Source: Cynocephalus volans (Eukaryota > Chordata > Mammalia > Dermoptera > Cynocephalidae). Taken from it: a stretch of 64,000 nt of DNA. Below the pieces are notes generated by a model that searched no databases, was not told the DNA's origin, and worked only from the letters and a program-made list of their open reading frames with translations. Location of the stretch: the NCBI RefSeq assembly GCF_027409185.1, contig NC_084462.1, forward strand, positions 21,551,577 to 21,615,576, written 5' to 3'. Numbering within the stretch: position 1 is the first letter of the stretch; every line of letters starts with the position of its first letter. Both the position numbers and the translations under genes were made by a program. Positions 1 to 62,451 of the stretch are shown here, in pieces.

Positions 1-1271
1 GTGCTCTTCTGAGCATTGCATTCATTCACGCATTAACTGTGGGGTCCTCCGTATGAGAAAGTGTGCACATCAGGGAGAGAAGAAGGATGGATCAGTTAGA
101 CTTGGAGTCTTTGCACTATCAGGTGAGGAGTGGAGAAGGGTGTTGAGACCTGGGAAAGGTGAGCAGCAAAGAGCCAGGTGTAATGGGAGCTGGGATTGGA
201 CGCAGATGGAACAGCAGTTGCCTTGTGGGGGTAGGGTGTGAAGTGCCTAGTGGCTAACTCAGCCTGGAAAAATATGCAAGGGTAAGGCTGGACAAAAGAG
301 TAAGACCAAAGGAGACACTCTCTCCCAGCCTCAGTTTCTCTGGTCTGAGTAATGTTCTTTAGTGTTTGGCAGGTAGAATCCAGCCTCTTAGGAACAAAGC
401 TGAAAACATCAGGGTTAGCAAGACAAAATACTAACAAGGACTAAAAGTTACTGAAAGGATATAATGGACCAAGTACCGCTTCTATGTGACTTATATACTA
501 ACAACCTACAAACAGCTTGGGAGTTAGGTACCATTAATAATTCCTCTTTACTGTTAGGAAAAAGAGGCAGGAGGTTAAGTAACTATGTTACACATCCATA
601 CAAATCCACAATTGCTGGACACCCCAAAATATTTCCAACTGCTTACCAACTTCTCCTCCAACAGCTCTGAATATGTGGACTGAGATACGACGAAAAGCTA
701 GGGGGACAAATGAATGTGCGTGCCCTAAGGTGGAGATCTCTGAGAGAAAGTCAGTAAACAAAACAAGTTGTAGAACAATACATAAAATAGCGTACTGTAA
801 GACAACACAACCCCAAATGATACGTATTTTCTGTGAGGACGTGTGTGTTTGTGTATATATCAATATATTATCCATTTATATATACGGGGTTTTAAGTATA
901 TATTATTGGGGTTGTGTGTTTATTAAAATATATGTGTAGATATATAAATATGTGTATACAAATATATATTTATGTGCATACATATACGTATACATTTTAT
1001 ATATTTGCACATATGTATACATATCTGCATATATTTATACACACGTTCCCACAAAAAATACTTATTATTTGGAGTTTGTAATTCGACTGTCTCTCGGTAT
1101 GCTGTTTTACGTATTGTTCTGCAACTTGCTGATGAATACTACATGTGTGTGAATGTTGACAAATATATAAGACAGGAGGTCACTCAGTTGATAAGATGCT
1201 TACTTCTGGGAAGAAGAGAAAGACCAAGATTGGATGTAACAGTCAACAGGGACTTTAGGCTTTTTCAAGAA
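1..1271. other. 5' flank, no gene seen
   Basis: No coding exon, RNA gene or clear repeat recognised, apart from the AT-rich stretch at 830-1045. The neighbouring human gene on this side (USP42) is tens of kb away. Confidence 0.5.
830..1045. repeat. AT/TG-rich low-complexity tract
   Basis: Alternating ta/tg/ca dinucleotides with many TATATA and ATACAT runs; degenerate, not a clean microsatellite. Confidence 0.8.
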
Positions 1272-1735
1272 CAGCGGGAGCGAAGCCGGGTCCGACGGGG
1301 CGTGGCGGACACCGAGCCCCACCGCAGACCTCCACCTCGACGATCCACGGGCCGCAGCCCCAGGACGAGCCCACGTTGACGCATGCGCCAGGATGCGCCC
1401 CTGAGGGACGAGCCCCTCCTTCCCTCCCGGAAGGGGGAAGGGGCGGGGCCTGCGGCAGGGCCCGCCCGTGGCCGGGGCGGATCTTCCGGCGAGCTAGGGG
1501 CTACTTCCGGATCGGGCAGTGGTCGTTGTGGCCTGCTTGTGAAGCTGGCTGGGCGACCCTGCGGGCTGCGCTGCGGCCCGCGCGCGGCTGGCGATCCTGG
1601 AGGGCAGCTGTGGGGCCCGCAACCGCGAAGCTGAGGGCGACCGGGCGGGGGCTGAGGCTGCGCCGCCCCCCACCGACTTCCCCGCCGGAGGCCCAGACCC
1701 CGAGTATGATGGTGAGGGACCGGGATGGGGATGTA
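1272..1735 (+). pseudogene. Diverged duplicate of EIF2AK1 promoter and exon 1, start codon lost
   Basis: Aligns without a break in order to 10364-10830. The copy of the coding exon is 1594-1711: exactly 118 nt, no indel against the real exon, about 20 mismatches by hand count. The initiator is ATC (1594-1596). The rest of the frame is open and ends FPAGGPDPEYD, followed by the same donor, gtgagg, at 1712. GC-rich upstream sequence and ETS-like sites (an acttccgg near 1503) are shared. It could be a dead tandem copy, or still act as an alternative first exon that splices to exon 2. No in-frame ATG replaces the lost one in the exon copy. Confidence 0.85.
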
Positions 1736-2034
1736 GGTAGTTGGAACGGCAGCTTGCTGTCCAAGAGAAGGGTGTTGGAGAATGTGTGTCCAGCTCGCCT
1801 CAGTTAGCCTTTGAAAAGAAAAGCCACTACCGACAGGAGATTCTCTAGCTGAAAAGCGGGAGAGTAAGGGATGTCAGAGGAAGACGCCCGCCCGAGCCCA
1901 GAGTTCCTCTGATCTGAAAGAGGACAATGGGTGCACGTCGGGTAGAGTCGAATCTCCTGGGAGCCAAGACTAGCCAACGAAAATAAAGTTCTAATAAGTA
2001 ACAGTTACGGAGAGCTTGCCGTAAATATGTCAAT

Positions 2035-2150
2035 TTATTTAATCCTTACAGCCGTCCTGTAAATTAGATGGTATTAGAATATCTTCATAAACGAGGAACT
2101 GAGGCTCAGGTTAATTTGTTTAAAATCACAGCCTCGTAGTGTCAGGATTC
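2035..2150 (-). repeat. MIR SINE fragment
   Basis: Core-like sequence in reverse orientation: aatcctta, then gaggaactgaggctcag and aaaatcacagc, as in the MIR 3' half. Confidence 0.7.
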
Positions 2151-2439
2151 CCTGTAAACATTAAACTGAGTACTGATGTTATTTTTCAAGTTTGAAATGT
2201 TGGAAACACCTAATTCTCATTCAGCTGGGAAAATGGCTACATTTACTATGGAGCATCCAGTTATGAAATACTGTGCTATACTAACATGGAAAGTTCCCCA
2301 CCACATATTTTGGAGCCAATACAAAAACTCAAGTTGCAGGAAAATAACTATTCAGTAATCCTTTTACACGAAAAACAACCCCCTCCAAACAATACTGTTT
2401 TTCTGTGGTATATACTTAACTGAGTGAGTAGAAAAAGAA

Positions 2440-2640
2440 TAGATGTCGCATAACAACGTTTGGGTCAGTGACAGACCACATACATGATGGTGGTCCCATG
2501 AGACTATAATGGAGCTGGAGGTTGTAGTAGCCTGTACCATCAAGGTATGTGTAGTAAGTACACTGATGTTCGAACAGTGTTGAAATTGCCTAGCGACAGA
2601 GGGTATCACCTCCGTTGTAGAGCGACGCATGTCTGTATAC
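2440..2640. repeat. Old interspersed repeat, probably a DNA-transposon fossil
   Basis: Ends read gtcgcataacaacg and cgacgcatgtctgta, resembling the two ends of a known middle-repetitive mammalian element with an internal deletion. Family not assigned. Confidence 0.5.
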
Positions 2641-3559
2641 CCGTGTTATGTTCTTTATATAATAAAAATTAATTTTGAAACGACTAAAAATCGTATTTTT
2701 ATCGTTTGAGCACCCACCCTGCTATAAATGGCATTTGCATACTTCCAAAAATCCACCACTAAGGGGTGAAGATTTGAAGCTTATGAGAATATGAACAAAA
2801 ATAAAAATATTCTTAGGGAATCCCAAAAGAGAACTTTAAAAGTAATTTTAAACATAAGTCCAATATTTCATTGTTTCATCCCAAGGAACTTTAAAAAGAA
2901 TGAATATTTCCTGCAACTCCTCTAGGTTTACATTTTATAGCTCATTTGATGGTAACTGAGAGGCGCTAAGTAGTATTAAGTAATTTTTCAAATGTGACTC
3001 CTGATATTTTTAGTTGAGATATTTTATAACATAACTTTGTAAAATTTTATTACTATAAAGTTTTTTATTTTTTATAAAATTATTAAATCTTTGCCCAAAT
3101 CTTATACCTGACAATTTGGTAATCCTACATAAAAATTGTTAAAAACAAACAAAAAATCGTTAATGTCTCTTTTGTACGTTGCGCCGGGGTTGAGGCATTA
3201 AAACTAAAAGGGATAAGTCCAGAGATTGAGGTGGGAGAGATCCACTCTATTTGGCAATAAACACTGGAAAGTGCCATTTAAAATATGTCATTTGACCTAA
3301 GGAATATCAAGAACCAATTTTGGTTTGAGGATCATTTAGTTATTCACCTTATTTGGGGAAGTAAAGTAGAAAGCAGAAGTAGATGTGCCTACCTGACAAG
3401 TCCCTCTTTATCTGGGACTTCCCAATCATGGATGGCAAGACCCTGATAAGTGAGAGTTCTAATCCTGATGACATCATAACTGTCGCTTCGTAGCCAGCCA
3501 GATCAACAGAATTTTTGAATGGCCTTGACTTAGGGCATTCCTCACCCTTAGAAGATGCT

Positions 3560-4055
3560 TGAAATCTTTTTTACAGTGTATTAATTATTGCAACAAATTA
3601 CCCCCAAACAAACGTATTCTCCCACAGTTTCTGAAGGTCAGGAATCAGAATAGAGTGGCTGTTGGTTCTGACTCAGTCTTTCTTGGGGTTGCAGTCAAAC
3701 AGTTTTCCAGGGCTCCAAGTCATTTCAGGGTCCTACTGGGACTGAAGAATGTACTGCAAGCTCACTTCCTTACTGTTCGCAGGCCTCACATCCTCACAAT
3801 GGGGGCCTGGCTATAAGGTTGCTCACAACATGGCAGCTTGCTTCCCCAGAGCAAGAAATGAGAGAGGGAAAAAGCAAGACAGAAGCCACAGTGTCTTTTG
3901 AAGTAATCTTGGAAGTCACATACCACTAATTCTCTGTATGCTAACAATCACACAGGCCAACCTTAGTGCAGTGTGAGAGGGAAATTGACAAGGGTGTGAG
4001 GACCAAGAAGTGGAGATCATTGGGGGCCATCTTGAAGGCAAGCTAGCATACAGTC
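3560..4055. repeat. Unclassified ancient interspersed repeat
   Basis: Wording such as ctcccacagtttctgaaggtc and cacatcctcacaatg recalls a common mammalian LTR-type element. No family name is supported. Confidence 0.35.
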
Positions 4056-4337
4056 GTACCATTTCCCAAACACTCATTCTCACTCATTATTACTAGATAC
4101 CTACAGAATGACTAGAGCTATGAAGAAATGAAGGAATTAGAGACACTGTGGAAACAAATTGGGTCCCAGTGCTATACATGTGCAACTAACGTCCGATGAA
4201 TAAGTACACAGGAAAGATGATAAAACGTATACAACTGCAGTCATATATCTAAACACATTATTAGTTACCTTACGTAATATGAAATATTTGTTTATTGATC
4301 CAACCAGTTGAGCCAGTGTTTTTGTTTGTTTTCGTTT

Positions 4338-4424
4338 GGTGCCTGGCTGGTACAGGTATCAAACCATGGACCTTGGTGTTATCAGCACCATGCTCTAACC
4401 AACTTAGCTAACTGGCCAGTCTGA
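4338..4424 (-). repeat. CYN SINE monomer (tRNA-Ile derived)
   Basis: Reverse complement reads gccagttagctaagttggtt, then gtgctgataacaccaagg and a B-box region; degenerate. Confidence 0.8.
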
Positions 4425-4800
4425 GGTGGTATCTCTGTGCCATATGGATAAGAAATTTCTACCTCTTTCCATCTCATTACTTCCAAACATGTACGGATGG
4501 ATATACCATTAATTTTGTACTATTGGAAGTTTATGGCACTTGCCATCTGCAGGGTGAACATAATTAAATATTCATGTAATCATGATGATTAATAAAGGTA
4601 GCCAGTGGGGGTTTCCTTTGATGGTATTGAGCTTTCCCCCAATTGAGAAAGCTGACTTTGAAGTCCATGTGGATGTTGATGGAAAGGCCTCACAGTAGGG
4701 AGCTTGGTGATGGAAGGAGGTATGGGAGAGTAGGTAGGCAATTCATGTATACACACATGCACACAAGGACAGATAGACACACATAGACATACACACAAAC

Positions 4801-4888
4801 ATGAGGGTACTTCAAAATGTTCATGGAAAGATTTTTTTTTTTGTATTCTAGTTCTATTTTTCCACGAACTTTTCGAAGTACCCTTGTA
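4801..4888. mobile_element. Palindromic mariner-type MITE (MADE2/Hsmar2-like)
   Basis: Inverted ends gagggtacttcaaaatgttc and gaacttttcgaagtaccctt flank a short AT core. A second copy lies at 44441. Confidence 0.65.
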
Positions 4889-5309
4889 TACACAGATACA
4901 TAACTATACTGCTTTAGAGAGTTTGTCTTTGCTTCACCGTGAGGGAAAAGCTGTACTGTATGTGCGGTATAGGTGGAGAAGGTAGGTGAGGGCCACCTAT
5001 ACAGCCAATGGCCAACAATTATTCAGTTGGTCACCTAGATTTCTGTCCTACTTCTGGGCAACTCTGTCCCTTCTCCAGAGGCTGTGACCTGGAGAACAAT
5101 TCCCACCTCTGCTCTGGCCCTCTCATGAATGCTTAAGTTGTGAGTCTTACTTTTATGTTCATTTGTCAGTGTGATCCCATAGACCACCATGAGTGTGGCA
5201 GAAGCAGAGACTGGCAAGAAAAGAAGAGGCAGCTCTTGAAAGGCCCTGTAGGCAATGGGGGAGGAGTCTGCATTTTAGTCTAAGTGCTGTAGAAAGGCTG
5301 ACTCACCAG

Positions 5310-5530
5310 AAGGCCTAACTGGCCTTCCTGCTTCCACTCCTGCCTTCCTCTCCTGGCCTCTTTCTTAGACATACACCTAAGCACATTCCCCCCCCAGAGC
5401 CCTCGCACTTTCTTTCTGTTTGGGACATCTTCCCTCAGGTCTTGGCACAGATGATGCCTTCTTATATTTCAAGTTACAGCTCAAAAGAGGCCTTCTTAGA
5501 CAGATCTTCTTTGGTCATACAATCTGATGT
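5310..5530 (+). repeat. L2 LINE 3' fragment
   Basis: Tracts such as gacatcttccctcaggtc and aagaggccttcttagac fit the pyrimidine-rich 3' part of L2. Confidence 0.5.
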
Positions 5531-5582
5531 GTGTCCTCACCACCTCCCCTCCTCCTCCCTGCCTATGTCAGCATCTCTCTGT

Positions 5583-6140
5583 GATGGTTAATTTTATGTG
5601 TCAACTTGCTGGGCCCCAGATATTTGGTCCAACATTATTCTGGATGTTTCTTTGCCAGTGTTCTTGGATGAGATTAACATTTAAATCCGTGGACTTAAAG
5701 CAGATTGTCCTCCATAATGTGGGTGGGCCTCATCCAATCATTTGAAGGCCTGAATAGAACAAAAAGACTGACCTCTTTGAGCAAGAACTAATTCTGCCAG
5801 AAGACAGCTTTCGAACCTGAACTGCAGCACTGACTCTTCTCTGAGTCTCCAGCCTGCTGGCCCACCCTGCAGATTCAGGACTTGCCAGCTTCCATGACAC
5901 CATGAGTCAATCCTTAAAATAAACCTTTCTCTCTGGGCCGGCCCGTGGCTCACTCGGGAGAGTGTGGTGCTGAGAACACCAAGGCCCCGGGTTCGGATCC
6001 CATATACGGATGGCCGGCAACACCAAGTCAAGGGTTAAGATCCCCTTACCGGTCATCTTTTAAAAAAAAAAAAAAAAAAACCTTTCTCTCTATGTGCACA
6101 TTCTATTGGTTCTCTTTCTCTGGAGAACCCTAACTAATAA
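5583..6140 (+). repeat. Ancient repeat interrupted by a CYN SINE
   Basis: Starts gtgatggttaattttatgtg and ends ctggagaaccctaactaat, both well-known ends of a common mammalian repeat. The CYN dimer at 5935 split it. Confidence 0.6.
5935..6080 (+). repeat. CYN SINE dimer with target-site duplication
   Basis: Two fused tRNA-Ile-like units, the second shortened, with an A tail. Flanked by a direct repeat cctttctctct (5924-5934 and 6081-6091). Confidence 0.9.
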
Positions 6141-6554
6141 ACTTGCTTTCTTGAGAAAGAAGAAAAAGAAACACTTCAAACATATAAAAAGGTACAAAGA
6201 ACAATGTAAAGAAATACCAATGTTTCCACAACCAAATTTAATCACCACTGATGTTAGGCTATATTTGCTTGAGAATTGCTTTTCTTAAAGAAATAACATT
6301 TACAAATATAGCTAAATTCCAATTGTAACCCTTTTTCTTCCCACTGCCCCCTCTCTCTCTTAAGAGGTAATCACTCTCTTAAAGTCAGGTATCATTCCTA
6401 CCTATATTTTAGCATTTTTACTACAAATGTATGTGTCCATAAATAATGTACATTTTTTTATATATAAAAAAATTTACATACATGGAATCATACTGTAGGA
6501 GGCTGAATTTAGAGCCAAAGTGCCTGGATTTAAATTCTGTCTGTCACGGATCTC

Positions 6555-6710
6555 TTTTTGGGGTCATGAAAGTGTCTAAAATTACATAGTGGTGATGGTC
6601 ACAGAATTCTCTGTGCTAAAAACTACTGAATTCTACACTTTCAAAGTGAATTTAATGCTATGTAATTTTATGGCATATAATTATCTCTCAGTAAAGCTGT
6701 TATAAAAATA
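6555..6710 (+). repeat. Old L1 3' UTR end
   Basis: ttacatagtggtgatggtc, then actactgaattctacacttt and ctcagtaaagctgttataaa: the conserved tail of L1M-type elements. Confidence 0.65.
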
Positions 6711-6724
6711 TAGATCACAATGAA

Positions 6725-6905
6725 AGGTGATGTATAAGTAAAAATTCTGGCTACGTTATCTGTTATAAGTTGTGTGACCTTGGACAAGGTATTTAAAAAG
6801 CTTTCTTTGCCTCCATGTTCTCATCTATAAAATAGGATAATTATGTCATCTAGCTGGCAAGTTTGCTATGAGGATTGATTGAATTAATACTTGTAAAAAC
6901 ACTCA
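6725..6905 (+). repeat. MIR SINE
   Basis: Core ttgtgtgaccttggacaagg followed by ctcatctataaaataggat, close to the MIR consensus. Confidence 0.8.
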
Positions 6906-6934
6906 GAACAAGGTGGGAAGAGTAAACATTAGCA

Positions 6935-6976
6935 ATTATTATTATTATTAATATTATTATTATTATTATTATTATT
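6935..6976 (+). repeat. (ATT)n microsatellite
   Basis: About 14 ATT units with one interruption (ttaat). Confidence 0.95.
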
Positions 6977-7299
6977 GCAATTTAGGGTTTTTACTGTGTT
7001 GATTTCAATGTCTCTGATGATATATGTGGATTAGTTGATTCATTCTAACTGTTCTACAATATTCACTTGCATACAAAATACGTTTATTTAATCTGTTTCC
7101 CTATTGATGGATGTTAGGTGATTTCCAAATTTGTTATTACAGTGTTGCAATGAACATCCTTACACACGTATCCTTAGGCATATGTAAGGGTATCAAAAGG
7201 GAACCTGGAGGGAATTACTGGATCTTGGGTATGCAAATATTAAAGAAAAAAATTATTTATGACACTTGTTAAAGATGGTAAGGCTGACTTTATTCAAGG

Positions 7300-7395
7300 G
7301 GGGCTACTCTCAGTTGGTTAGAGAGTAGTGCTGATAACACAAAGGTTCTGGGTTTGATCCCTGTACCAAACAGCAAATAAAACAAAATAAACAAG
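7300..7395 (+). repeat. CYN SINE monomer
   Basis: ctcagttggttagagagtag, gctgataacacaaagg and gggtttgatccc give A and B boxes; A-rich tail. Confidence 0.8.
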
Positions 7396-8024
7396 GGGGG
7401 GGTCCAAAATGGTGTTTTGTTCTAGGGGAGGAGGTCACATTTACCTCTGAATACAACGAGGAAAAGTGGGAACTTAAAGCCAAGGAGCAGAGTGTGTGCA
7501 TCTGAGAGGGGTGCCAATGGATGGAAAATTACTAAGGAAACATCAGGGATAAGGGGATTTCTGGCTGACCCGACCTAACAGGATTCTTGCTGAAGGCAGG
7601 CTAGGGTGATCAGACATCACCTGCGGCATGGTAGGGGAACAGGAACCCAGTCAGATATTGAGAATAATCAGACATTGAGGATGGGGGATGCTGCCTAAAG
7701 TGACTTACCAGGATTCTTGCTAAAATTGGACAATGCAGAGATGAACATGGAAACCCCCAAATCAAGGCCTATTTGAAAAAGGAGTTCAGAGGAGCCTGAC
7801 AAAAGTTAGGTCAAGGAGAGAATCTTTGTTAACCATTTGACTTTATTCAATGTTACTAAATTTGTAGGCAGTCTAGATATATTCTGGATATGGAACAAAG
7901 GTTGACTCTCAGGTTTTAGGCTTGGACAAATGTGTGGATTGTGTGCCATTCACATGGATAAAGAGTGGTAATGGAAAACAAATTTTAAGAAGATCAAGAG
8001 TTGTTTTATCACCGCAACAGCCAG

Positions 8025-8089
<65 letters not shown>
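8025..8089 (+). repeat. (CA)n microsatellite
   Basis: About 32 uninterrupted CA units; the poly-His and poly-Cys/Val readings across it are artefacts. Confidence 0.97.
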
Positions 8090-8093
<4 letters not shown>

Positions 8094-9455
8094 AGAGCTC
8101 TTTTAGACAAATTTGAGATGCTTTTGCATCAGCCAAGAGAACAAGTCTGTGCTGTAGATATACTTTTGGGAGTTGTTAGCTTATAGATGGTATTTAAAGT
8201 GATAGCAATGCTCATAGTTATCTCCTGAGAGAATTTGGAGAGAGATGGCAAGTGATCTACAGAGTTTATTCATTTGGAGAAGGCAGATTCAGTAATGGAT
8301 ACAGAGATGTAGGACCAATAAAATAGAGAAAAACCAGAAGAGTGTTTTTACTGAACCCAAGTCCAGCTGCCCTCTGCCCAAAGACTCAAAAGTCAAATGT
8401 TGGTGATAAGGGAAGCCAGCTTTACTCAGGATTGGTAACCTGAAGGATATGGTAGACAAACCTATCTCAAAGGCTCAGATTTACTGTGGGCTTTTTAAAG
8501 AGGGGGATGAGGGAAAGGAACATGGAAGTGAAAAGCAGGAGGGAGGTAGACATGTAAGGGGCCAGGTGCAAAGTTTTGCCAAAGCTCTGTCTGGCTTCTG
8601 TTCTCGTCCTTTTCATTTTCTTAGGGTCCTGCAAGACTGTGATTTGCTTTGGGTGGAATCAGCATAGCTTTATTAATGTCTTCCTTGGTTTCTCAGGGTC
8701 TGGATAGTATGTGTCTTGTGTAAGTTTGCAACTCCAGGCTGACTGGAAAACAACTTCACATTTATGTAAATAATGTCATCTTACCCCATAATCAAGGTTC
8801 AAAATATTGAATAACCACGGGAAAAGAGGGAACTCAGAGAAATGCATGCTAAGAAAAAAAACTCTGTCCTTTTTTCCCCTCTAAAGCCCATGTAGTTTTA
8901 GGTTCCGACATGACTTCAGTACTGCTCACTCCAACAGTGTGATATCATGGAAGCTAGAGAGGAACATGAAGCTTTTTCAATTTGTGTAATAGCTGCACAA
9001 GCTTTAATTGCATGGATGTACCCTAATTGCTCTTCTATTTGGATTCAGATGTATTTCATCACTTTTCTATTATAAACTACACTTAAACGAACATTCTTAT
9101 AGATTCATCTTTTTTTTTTTCCCTCTCTGATTATTTCCTTTGTATATACTTCTATATGTAGGTCAAAAGGAATGCCTATTCAAAAGTTTTTGCTCTAAGT
9201 TGCTCATCATCTTCTAGAAAGTTTGCTTTGATTTGTATACCTATCAGAATGAGTTGCCTTTTCCTCCATACTCATTAATACTGGGCATTTCCAGTGATGG
9301 TGGAAAAGTAGTGAGAAACACATATTACATATCAACATTTTTAATGCCTGCAAAGTGTGCCATTGTGTGGATGTTCATAATTCATTTAGTCAATTGTCTA
9401 AGTAATTGTCTTCTTCTTTGGGCATCATAACCGGTGTTGCAATTAATAGCTTTTT

Positions 9456-9530
9456 TGGGGGGGGTGGCTGGCCAGTATGGGGATTCGAACCCTTGATCTT
9501 GGTGTTATAATACTGCATTGTTTTTAACTA
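9456..9530 (-). repeat. CYN SINE fragment
   Basis: T/G-rich start, then gctggccagtatggggattc and cttgatcttggtgttat: reverse CYN, cut before its A box. Confidence 0.65.
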
Positions 9531-10193
9531 TATATTTTTGCTCATTCTTAACCTTTTCCTTAGGATAAATTGCTGAAACTGAAATTGTTGTGTCAAAGGC
9601 ATTTGCATTTTTAAAGCTGTGGATACATATATATAACTCACTTTCTGAAAGGTGTACTTCCAGAGCATCAGCAAGGCATGGGAAGGGACATCCCTAATCT
9701 TTGGAAGCTATCTGGACAGAACTACATCCTTAATAGCCTCTATCAGGGTGAATGCGTCCAATATGACTACATATAGAAAACATGTTAAAATTCTTAAACA
9801 ATACCACTTTTGCACATCACGCGGGGGTTGAGGGCCAAAATCTGAGAATTTTATTCCAGCCATATTATCTAATCCATGATCTCCTAAAGATTGTTTTCAA
9901 CAGCACTGAGTTGGCAACCAAGTCATCAGGACCATCTCCAGAGGGCAGAGGATGGATTTTTTTACGCTGAGGGCTTGAAAGCACAGTCGATCCAGTGTGG
10001 CCAGGAGGTCATCTGGAAAAGACTCTAAGGTTTGAAAACATTTCAATTGTAAATTCGGTCTCAAAAACAGCGGAATTTCTGTTAGGTTGGATTCACTATG
10101 GAATCTAGTTGGTATCTCCCATTTTGTTGTGGTTTAACGGTTGACCATAACAGATTTAGTTCTCATTGTGACAGGTCTTGTACATGCTTTTGA

Positions 10194-10216
10194 TTTTTTT
10201 TTTTTTTTTTTTTTTT
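10194..10216 (-). repeat. Poly(T) run
   Basis: 23 T just upstream of the EIF2AK1 CpG island; no element body recognised beside it. Confidence 0.8.
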
Positions 10217-10363
10217 GGAAAACAAATGACAGAGTCATTGTTTCCGCAAAAGGTAAACATTTGCATTAGTCTCTGCAGACATCTGATTCTTACATTGATA
10301 CCTGAGTCTTGGCACGAGATATGAGTATGACTCGTCTGCAGATGCTCTGGACACTCGGAAAGG

Positions 10364-10696
10364 GCAGACGGAAGCGAGGCCGGAGTCGGCCGGGACGTGG
10401 CAAGCACCCGGACCGCCACCGTCCTCGCTCCGGAAGCCCCGCAGACCTCAGCCCGAGGACGAGCCCACCTTGACGCGAGTGCCGGGGGTGCGCCCTGGCC
10501 GGACCAGCCCATCCTTTCCTCCCGGAAGGAGGAAGGGGAGGAGCCTGCGGCAGGGCCCGCCCCCGACAGCGGCGCGCGCGTGGCTGGGGCGGGTCTTCCG
10601 GCGGGAGAGTGGCTAACTTCCTGACCGGGTCGCGATCGCTGTGGAGGCGGTGCTGGGCTAGCGGCGGGTTGGTCAGCTGCCTGCGCGCCGCCGGCG
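10364..10696 (+). promoter_or_regulatory. EIF2AK1: EIF2AK1 CpG-island promoter and 5' UTR
   Basis: Very CpG-rich sequence continuing through exon 1 to about 11000. It has ETS-like cores (cccggaagg, cttccggcg), a GC box (ggggcggg near 10585) and no TATA box. The transcription start is not resolved. It is homologous to about 1272-1593. Confidence 0.8.
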
Positions 10697-42583
<31,887 letters not shown>

Positions 42584-43643: not shown

Positions 43644-51052
<7,409 letters not shown>

Positions 51053-51394
51053 CGCTGGAACCCAAGGAAGGAAGGCAGCGGGCGACGGACGCCAAAGCTC
51101 AGAAACCGTCCTAGGCCACGACGGACTACGCACACTGCCTTCCTGACCCTGTTGAGGGCGTTCGGGAAAACGCAGCCCGTGCTCTCTAATTGGCCCGGAC
51201 TCTCTGACGTCACGGACTCAACCTTTGACACAACCAATCAGCGAGAAGGAGATGTGGGAAGCGTTTGCCGCCCCGCCGGGAAAGGGCGGGACACAGTGTC
51301 AAAAGCAGCCAATGGGCAGCCGGAAGGCGGGGCCCCTGTGGGAGCCCGGGCGGGAATTCTCCCGCAGAGGAGGAGGCGGGTCGGGTTCGCATCC
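51053..51394. promoter_or_regulatory. Bidirectional AIMP2-PMS2 promoter
   Basis: 342 bp between the two divergent start codons, within a CpG-rich block from about 50740 to 51700. It holds a perfect CRE (TGACGTCA, 51205-51212), CCAAT boxes at 51234-51238 and 51309-51313, and an inverted one (ATTGG) at 51189-51193; there is no TATA box. CCAAT and CRE elements in this spacing are typical of divergent housekeeping promoters. Confidence 0.85.
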
Positions 51395-61694
<10,300 letters not shown>

Positions 61695-62294: not shown

Positions 62295-62451
62295 CTTTTT
62301 TTTTTTTTTTTGACCAGTAAGGGGATCATAACCCTGGCGCGGTGTGGTCCACACCACACTCAGCCAGTGAGCGCACCGGCCATCTGTATATAGGATCCGA
62401 ACCCATGGCCTCGGGTGCCACACTCCCCCGAGTGAGCCATGGGGCCAGCCC
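62295..62451 (-). repeat. CYN SINE dimer with target-site duplication
   Basis: gaccagtaaggggatcataa through gagccatggggccagcc. Direct repeat tatgctgtctct at 62283-62294 and 62452-62463. Confidence 0.93.

Follow-up and report, generated by a model that had tools for sequence, protein, structure and literature searches.

The analysed window is a 64,000-nucleotide stretch of forward-strand DNA (C3:21551577-21615576), and searches of its own genome covered 2.81 Gb in 130 contigs. When the window was searched by tblastn with the human HRI protein, the EIF2AK1 (HRI) exons were matched one after another on the + strand, from 10697 to 42574. A structure search with an HRI stretch found no match among solved structures. 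Upstream of the gene lies a second copy of its promoter and first coding exon, followed by a flank, here called flank X, that has a GC content of 0.41 and no match to EIF2AK1 (Table 1).

SINE-like sequences of at least 61 bases occupy 16 places in the window after merging, and we take them to be similar to colugo dimeric tRNA-Ile SINEs. ARAGORN called four tRNAs in the window (two tRNA-Ile and two tRNA-Val), some of which fall on SINE places, and the head of the Alu element had no match in the window with up to three mismatches. A CpG-rich SINE variant at 60901-61401, which reaches up to 21 CpGs per 500 bp and adjoins an older SINE, suggests a younger subfamily. The window also holds a CpG island at 50500-52000, which from synteny we presume to be the shared promoter of AIMP2 and PMS2. 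Within EIF2AK1, a full-length match to Rfam snoU89 (85 bits; gathering threshold, 44) lies on the - strand of intron 1 at 12729-12986 and is perhaps a retroposed small RNA, and a compound AC-repeat array with higher units of 93 and 158 bases occupies part of an intron at 29478-30038. Just 5' of the promoter copy is a 365-base imperfect palindrome (764-1128), whose 41-base end arms are 83% complementary and which looks like a small DNA transposon; the segment from 776 to 1274 contains nine CpGs (observed/expected ratio [o/e], 0.76) within AT-rich DNA.

Table 1. Features of the promoter copy, its downstream flank and the parental EIF2AK1 locus (window coordinates)
Feature	Position	Strand	Basis and remarks
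Copy block, from EIF2AK1 promoter and 5'UTR through exon 1 into the start of intron 1	1269..1725	+	Alignment to 10363-10828; own-genome search
NRF1-like core GCATGCGC, sole one in window	1381..1388	+	Motif scan
ETS site CCGGAAG, kept at aligned parent place 10522	1427..1433	+	Alignment and motif scan
GC box GGGGCGGGG, sole one in window	1440..1448	+	Motif scan
ETS site CTTCCGG, kept at aligned parent place 10595	1483..1489	-	Alignment and motif scan
ACTTCCGG, ETS on - strand; C10 homology begins here; candidate (inferred) transcription start region	1503..1510	+	Motif scan; C10 alignment
Copy exon 1 (118 nt): open frame lacking an AUG start; 21 differences from parent without indels	1594..1711	+	Alignment to 10697-10814
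ATC where EIF2AK1 has its start ATG	1594..1596	+	Alignment; C10 relative has ATG here
CTG codon 2, A at -3, G at +4; hypothetical candidate non-AUG start	1597..1599	+	Sequence context
Kept splice donor GTGAGG	1712..1717	+	Alignment
Flank X, 3' of copy	1726..2446	+	No other match in window; 1762-2446 common to C10, 74.7%
Insert	2441..2640		Limits by eye; not seen in C10
Parental EIF2AK1 promoter block	10363..10828	+	Alignment to copy
EIF2AK1 coding exon 1 (parent)	10697..10814	+	tblastn
EIF2AK1 exon 2, acceptor TTTTTAG before exon	17164..17322	+	tblastn; one match in own-genome search

The initial annotation had described the upstream block as duplicating the promoter and first coding exon of EIF2AK1 and had proposed pairwise alignment as a check of that homology. 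Both the description and the check held: local alignment joined 1275-1723 to 10369-10826 (E = 4.1e-78), with a score of 211, where none of 300 dinucleotide-preserving shuffles exceeded 25. Global alignment of 1269-1725 with 10363-10828 yielded 443 ungapped columns (349 identical, 94 different) and 37 gap columns. The GC-rich upstream part, for which homology had been claimed over about 320 bp, is identical in 239 of 305 columns over 1275-1593. Identity is 0.743 at 1275-1390, 0.867 at 1391-1480, 0.755 at 1481-1593 and 0.822 in the exon; the evidence for higher conservation at 1391-1480 is weak (p = 0.04, uncorrected), and about two identity runs of at least 16 bases are expected at the identity of copy and parent. 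All 12 intron bases at 1712-1723 agree with the parent. Homology that reaches into the promoter (1275-1593) and into the intron (1712-1723) marks the copy as an unprocessed duplicate.

An origin as a processed retrocopy is out, given the promoter and intron bases of the copy and the lack of an exon 2 nearby; its edges carry only a 6-base repeat, as opposed to the target-site duplication expected of a retrocopy. Outside the block, the copy and parent loci had no blastn match at an E threshold of 0.001 apart from SINE-like repeats. Neither blastn nor tblastn found a further EIF2AK1 exon between the two, and the 60 kb upstream (390 bases of which read N) yielded matches at SINE-like places only and no HRI exon. 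The event was therefore a local duplication of about 457 bp, and a larger tandem duplication is out; of the tandem duplication that had been proposed, the duplication stands and "tandem" is only loosely right. Searched against its own genome, the 457-base block returned two matches, itself and the parent. This search scores just the best candidates of its first pass and misses diverged relatives, such as a decayed one on contig C10, described below, which was reached only via the downstream flank. The Kimura two-parameter distance between copy and parent is 0.21 at non-CpG columns and 0.25 at all columns; at between 1.2 and 3e-9 substitutions per year, it corresponds to a rough range of 35 to 105 million years, so that the duplication is probably tens of millions of years old.

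The exon of the copy had been reported to match the length of its parent without indel and with about 20 mismatches, to have kept an open frame and its splice donor, and to have changed ATG to ATC, all of which alignment confirmed. The accompanying statement that only the start codon was clearly lost understates the change, since 10 of 39 residues differ. Compared with human, mouse and rabbit, eight of these differences are copy-specific, meaning that the parental state occurs in at least one of the three species and the state of the copy in none; one is the reverse and one is split. Residue changes are thus shifted to the copy. The kept frame and donor had further been offered as signs of function, a use that we reject on chance survival. 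When 21 random substitutions were put into the parental exon, 69.5% of 20,000 simulated exons stayed open, and a 9-base donor survives by chance with a probability of 0.36 on the copy lineage alone or 0.12 over both lineages.

Copy and parent exons differ by 11 nonsynonymous changes in 87.2 sites (0.126) and 10 synonymous changes in 29.8 sites (0.335), corresponding to a Ka of 0.14 and a Ks of 0.44. The nonsynonymous rate per site is below the synonymous rate (p = 0.024) and, with p = 0.067, below that of the upstream noncoding sequence. The upstream noncoding value is 0.216; a neutral copy beside a frozen parent would show half of this, about 0.11, which is close to the nonsynonymous value that we observed. 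Parental constraint can thus explain the low nonsynonymous rate, and mild constraint on the copy would also be possible. With 11 nonsynonymous beside 10 synonymous differences and eight of the 10 residue changes on the copy side, a protein function of the copy exon is unlikely.

We then considered the CpG richness of the block, which the initial annotation had put forward as an argument that the copy may still be transcribed. The copy has 53 CpGs (o/e, 0.84) and the parent 57 (o/e, 0.91), compared with an o/e of 0.28 for the whole window. In ungapped columns, nine parental CpGs have become TG or CA in the copy, and six have done so in the reverse direction. CpG decay was simulated with a sequence-context model, calibrated on the distances observed (1000 runs per setting). 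At copy CpG rates of 1, 2, 3, 5, 10 and 15, the mean numbers of CpGs left were 55.2, 50.9, 47.6, 41.5, 29.8 and 21.6, and the fractions of runs reaching the observed 53 were 0.751, 0.345, 0.122, 0.004, 0 and 0, respectively. When 10-fold methylation was confined to the last half of the history, a fraction of 0.002 reached 53 CpGs, and when it was confined to the last quarter, a fraction of 0.065 did. Because 53 CpGs are almost never reached at 5- to 15-fold rates, we reject strong methylation throughout the history; the observed number is compatible with methylation that was weak (2-fold, P = 0.345; 3-fold, P = 0.122) or late (last quarter, P = 0.065).

As a local yardstick we used six dimeric SINEs, hand-picked from the 16 places and assumed to be methylated; single-unit SINEs and the dimers at 53799-53900 and 62296-62451, which by eye belong to another variant, were excluded. 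At five consensus CpG sites, 14 of 30 cells now read TG or CA, compared with 4.3% for non-CpG transitions, which implies a CpG rate of about 7.4-fold. The copy lost nine of 53 CpGs (1.8-fold; the parent, 1.1-fold), and CpG decay in the SINEs of the window is about four times faster than in the copy (copy versus SINEs, Fisher p = 0.005). CpG richness runs on downstream of both blocks. On the copy side, 500 bp at the start of the flank (1724-2223) contain 16 CpGs, more than any of 385 segments from 11.5 to 50 kb (mean, 2.9; maximum, 10), but four of 577 control segments drawn from the whole window outside islands reach at least 16, all of them around one CpG-rich SINE. In the parent, 28 CpGs lie in 10827-11326.

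A search of 1726-2300 against the genome returned the query itself and C10:39985539-39986098 at 75% identity. This match belongs to a third, CpG-depleted relative of the copy exon and its downstream flank at C10:39985315-39986437. The local match covers 1762-2446 (74.7%; E = 6e-128), and a further 33 of 35 bases agree at 2647-2681; at 2447-2646 and beyond 2681, likeness to C10 was no better than that of shuffles. The insert at 2441-2640 of the window resembles what we take to be a Tigger-type DNA transposon. On C10, a decayed EIF2AK1 exon 1 is recognizable, with the ATG and the donor GT kept and a 31-base gap within the exon. Likeness starts at copy position 1503 and parent position 10616, 91 and 81 bases before codon 1, respectively; the left part scores 20.8 and 21.3, barely above the maxima of 19.2 and 19.4 in 200 shuffles, and the exact left edge of the relative is therefore uncertain. 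Flank X has no match in the parental intron, so that the copy and the C10 sequence have a common history separate from that of the present parent. Within the block, 19 sites of the C10 sequence agree with the parent, 16 with the copy and 47 plus 8 with neither, numbers that leave the branching order unsettled.

It is the CpG comparison with C10 that carries our main reading, as this sister lost nearly all of its CpGs and the copy, together with its foreign flank, kept them. Over the shared span, the parent has 26 CpGs (213 bp), the copy 25 (223 bp) and the C10 relative one (210 bp). Fifteen CpGs are common to parent and copy; 11 of these are aligned in C10, where none is kept and six now read CA or TG. 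Across 1762-2446, 16 CpGs (o/e, 0.57) occur in the window compared with three (o/e, 0.15) in C10. In a longer flank alignment, none of the 17 CpGs of the window (two of them at gaps) is a CpG in C10, and nine are CA or TG; conversely, none of the four C10 CpGs is a CpG in the window, where two read CA. The block and its flank have thus been protected from CpG loss relative to their decayed relative. The argument from CpG richness holds, with simulation, SINE yardstick and C10 comparison all supporting protection, and taken together they show that the copy was long protected, largely, from germline methylation. By this measure, CpGs kept despite methylation-driven decay, the copy would count as a germline-unmethylated CpG island.

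The promoter motifs that may underlie this state are listed in Table 1. The 12-base NRF1 consensus with up to two mismatches is absent from the copy, and the parent has one weak match to it at 10719. The explanation that we favor, and consider probable from the sequence comparisons, is that the copy is a duplicated CpG-island promoter, still open in the germline, from which a non-coding RNA of local extent or an alternative first exon for EIF2AK1 would be transcribed. In this view, about 457 bp of the CpG-island promoter of EIF2AK1, including exon 1 together with its donor, were duplicated in the same orientation to a place 9.1 kb upstream. The protein reading of the copy would then have changed freely or nearly so, by the loss of the ATG and the mostly copy-specific residue changes, and the copy stayed largely unmethylated in the germline. 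The kept ETS sites and the GC box may be what keeps this CpG-island promoter open. RNA starting near 1500 would read across the old donor into flank X and be non-coding, and part of it might join EIF2AK1 exon 2. What we infer here is promoter activity, the start site and the fate of the RNA.

An extension of this explanation, which we regard as rather unlikely, is that the copy is a functioning promoter and gave rise to a separate non-coding gene, one of whose RNAs, running unspliced from about 1503 into flank X, was reverse-transcribed long ago and inserted on C10, where its CpGs were lost. The C10 relative, which contains exon 1 and flank X, starts close to the transcription start that we place from the length of the human EIF2AK1 5'UTR; it would therefore be a fossil of the RNA of the copy. 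Within the mismatch limits set, no target-site duplication of at least 8 bases was found around the C10 relative, and its retroposition is therefore unproven.

CpG protection can occur without transcription, and an unlikely though credible alternative is that the copy is unmethylated yet silent, with CpG density alone keeping it clear through the recruitment of CXXC proteins, so that a dead exon would lie in an orphan CpG island. The same CpG retention data fit this, as does the concentration of residue changes on the copy; against it, CpGs are kept in flank X as well, despite the GC content of that flank and its lack of any EIF2AK1 match, and the copy contains ETS sites and a GC box.

Less probable, and overlapping our favored explanation, is that the copy serves EIF2AK1 as an alternative first exon, with splicing from 1711 to 17164 past the parental first exon; translation would start at the CUG of codon 2, or the mRNA would be regulatory and poorly translated. 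The donor and the acceptor of exon 2 are intact and the joined frame is open, though without an AUG, a weak point in its favor since such survival is not unusual by chance. The five AGs in 10600-10697 are preceded by at most 57% pyrimidines, and therefore no strong acceptor lies there before the parental start codon. The initial annotation had called this exon non-initiating; the AUG is indeed lost, but the context of the CTG makes it a possible non-AUG start. Out-of-frame ATGs at 1706 (gained) and 1709 (with a parental counterpart at 10812) stand against efficient use of that codon, and the eight copy-specific residue changes also weigh against the alternative exon. In own-genome searches, which can miss diverged relatives, exon 2 had one match, and no retrocopy or fossil of an mRNA joining the copy exon to exon 2 was found.

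More doubtful still is a plain dead duplicate whose CpGs survive since methylation began only recently. Methylation confined to the last quarter of the history fits the simulation at the 10-fold rate (P = 0.065), but the coincidence of a recent silencing would be required, and the C10 relative displays the appearance of a long-decayed copy. It is very improbable that the roles are reversed, with the original first exon of EIF2AK1 in the upstream block and today's exon 1 as a later copy that took over: flank X is common to the C10 relative and the upstream block, and by the block alone C10 is about equally near both, but the parent keeps residues shared with other mammals, and its CpG richness beyond the block fits an upstream fragment, although the flank of the copy is CpG-rich too.

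Whether duplicated promoters keep an open state by sequence alone is a question worth testing, and in this genome three relatives of one block can be compared for it directly, namely the working parent, the copy that kept its CpGs and the CpG-depleted sister. If transcribed, the copy could affect HRI, the heme and mitochondrial stress kinase, via promoter competition or as a second first exon. In the titles and abstract openings of the open-access literature on EIF2AK1 alternative promoters, duplicated first exons and pseudogenes, no such copy is described. A human EIF2AK1 retrocopy in ATR, retro_hsap_2713 (PMC8071448), resembles the window copy as EIF2AK1-derived sequence outside the gene and differs from it in being RNA-derived, the window copy having promoter and intron bases.

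Like an unprocessed pseudogene fragment, the copy is a DNA-level duplicate of promoter, exon and intron start that has lost its start codon and carries most of the residue changes; unlike such a fragment, it has kept its promoter CpGs near the parental level, which the C10 relative has not. Duplicated promoters and first exons are themselves a known kind. In UGT1A and the clustered protocadherins, alternative first exons arose by duplication, and the likeness lies in a repeated promoter and first exon with its donor, 5' of shared downstream exons; in contrast, a single extra copy was found for EIF2AK1, its start codon is lost and splicing to exon 2 is hypothetical. Orphan CpG islands and duplicated CpG-island promoters can drive lncRNAs, and the copy resembles these in being CpG-rich, largely unmethylated by sequence evidence and unlikely to yield a protein. 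It differs from them in that its origin is known and a CpG-depleted sister is available as a control.
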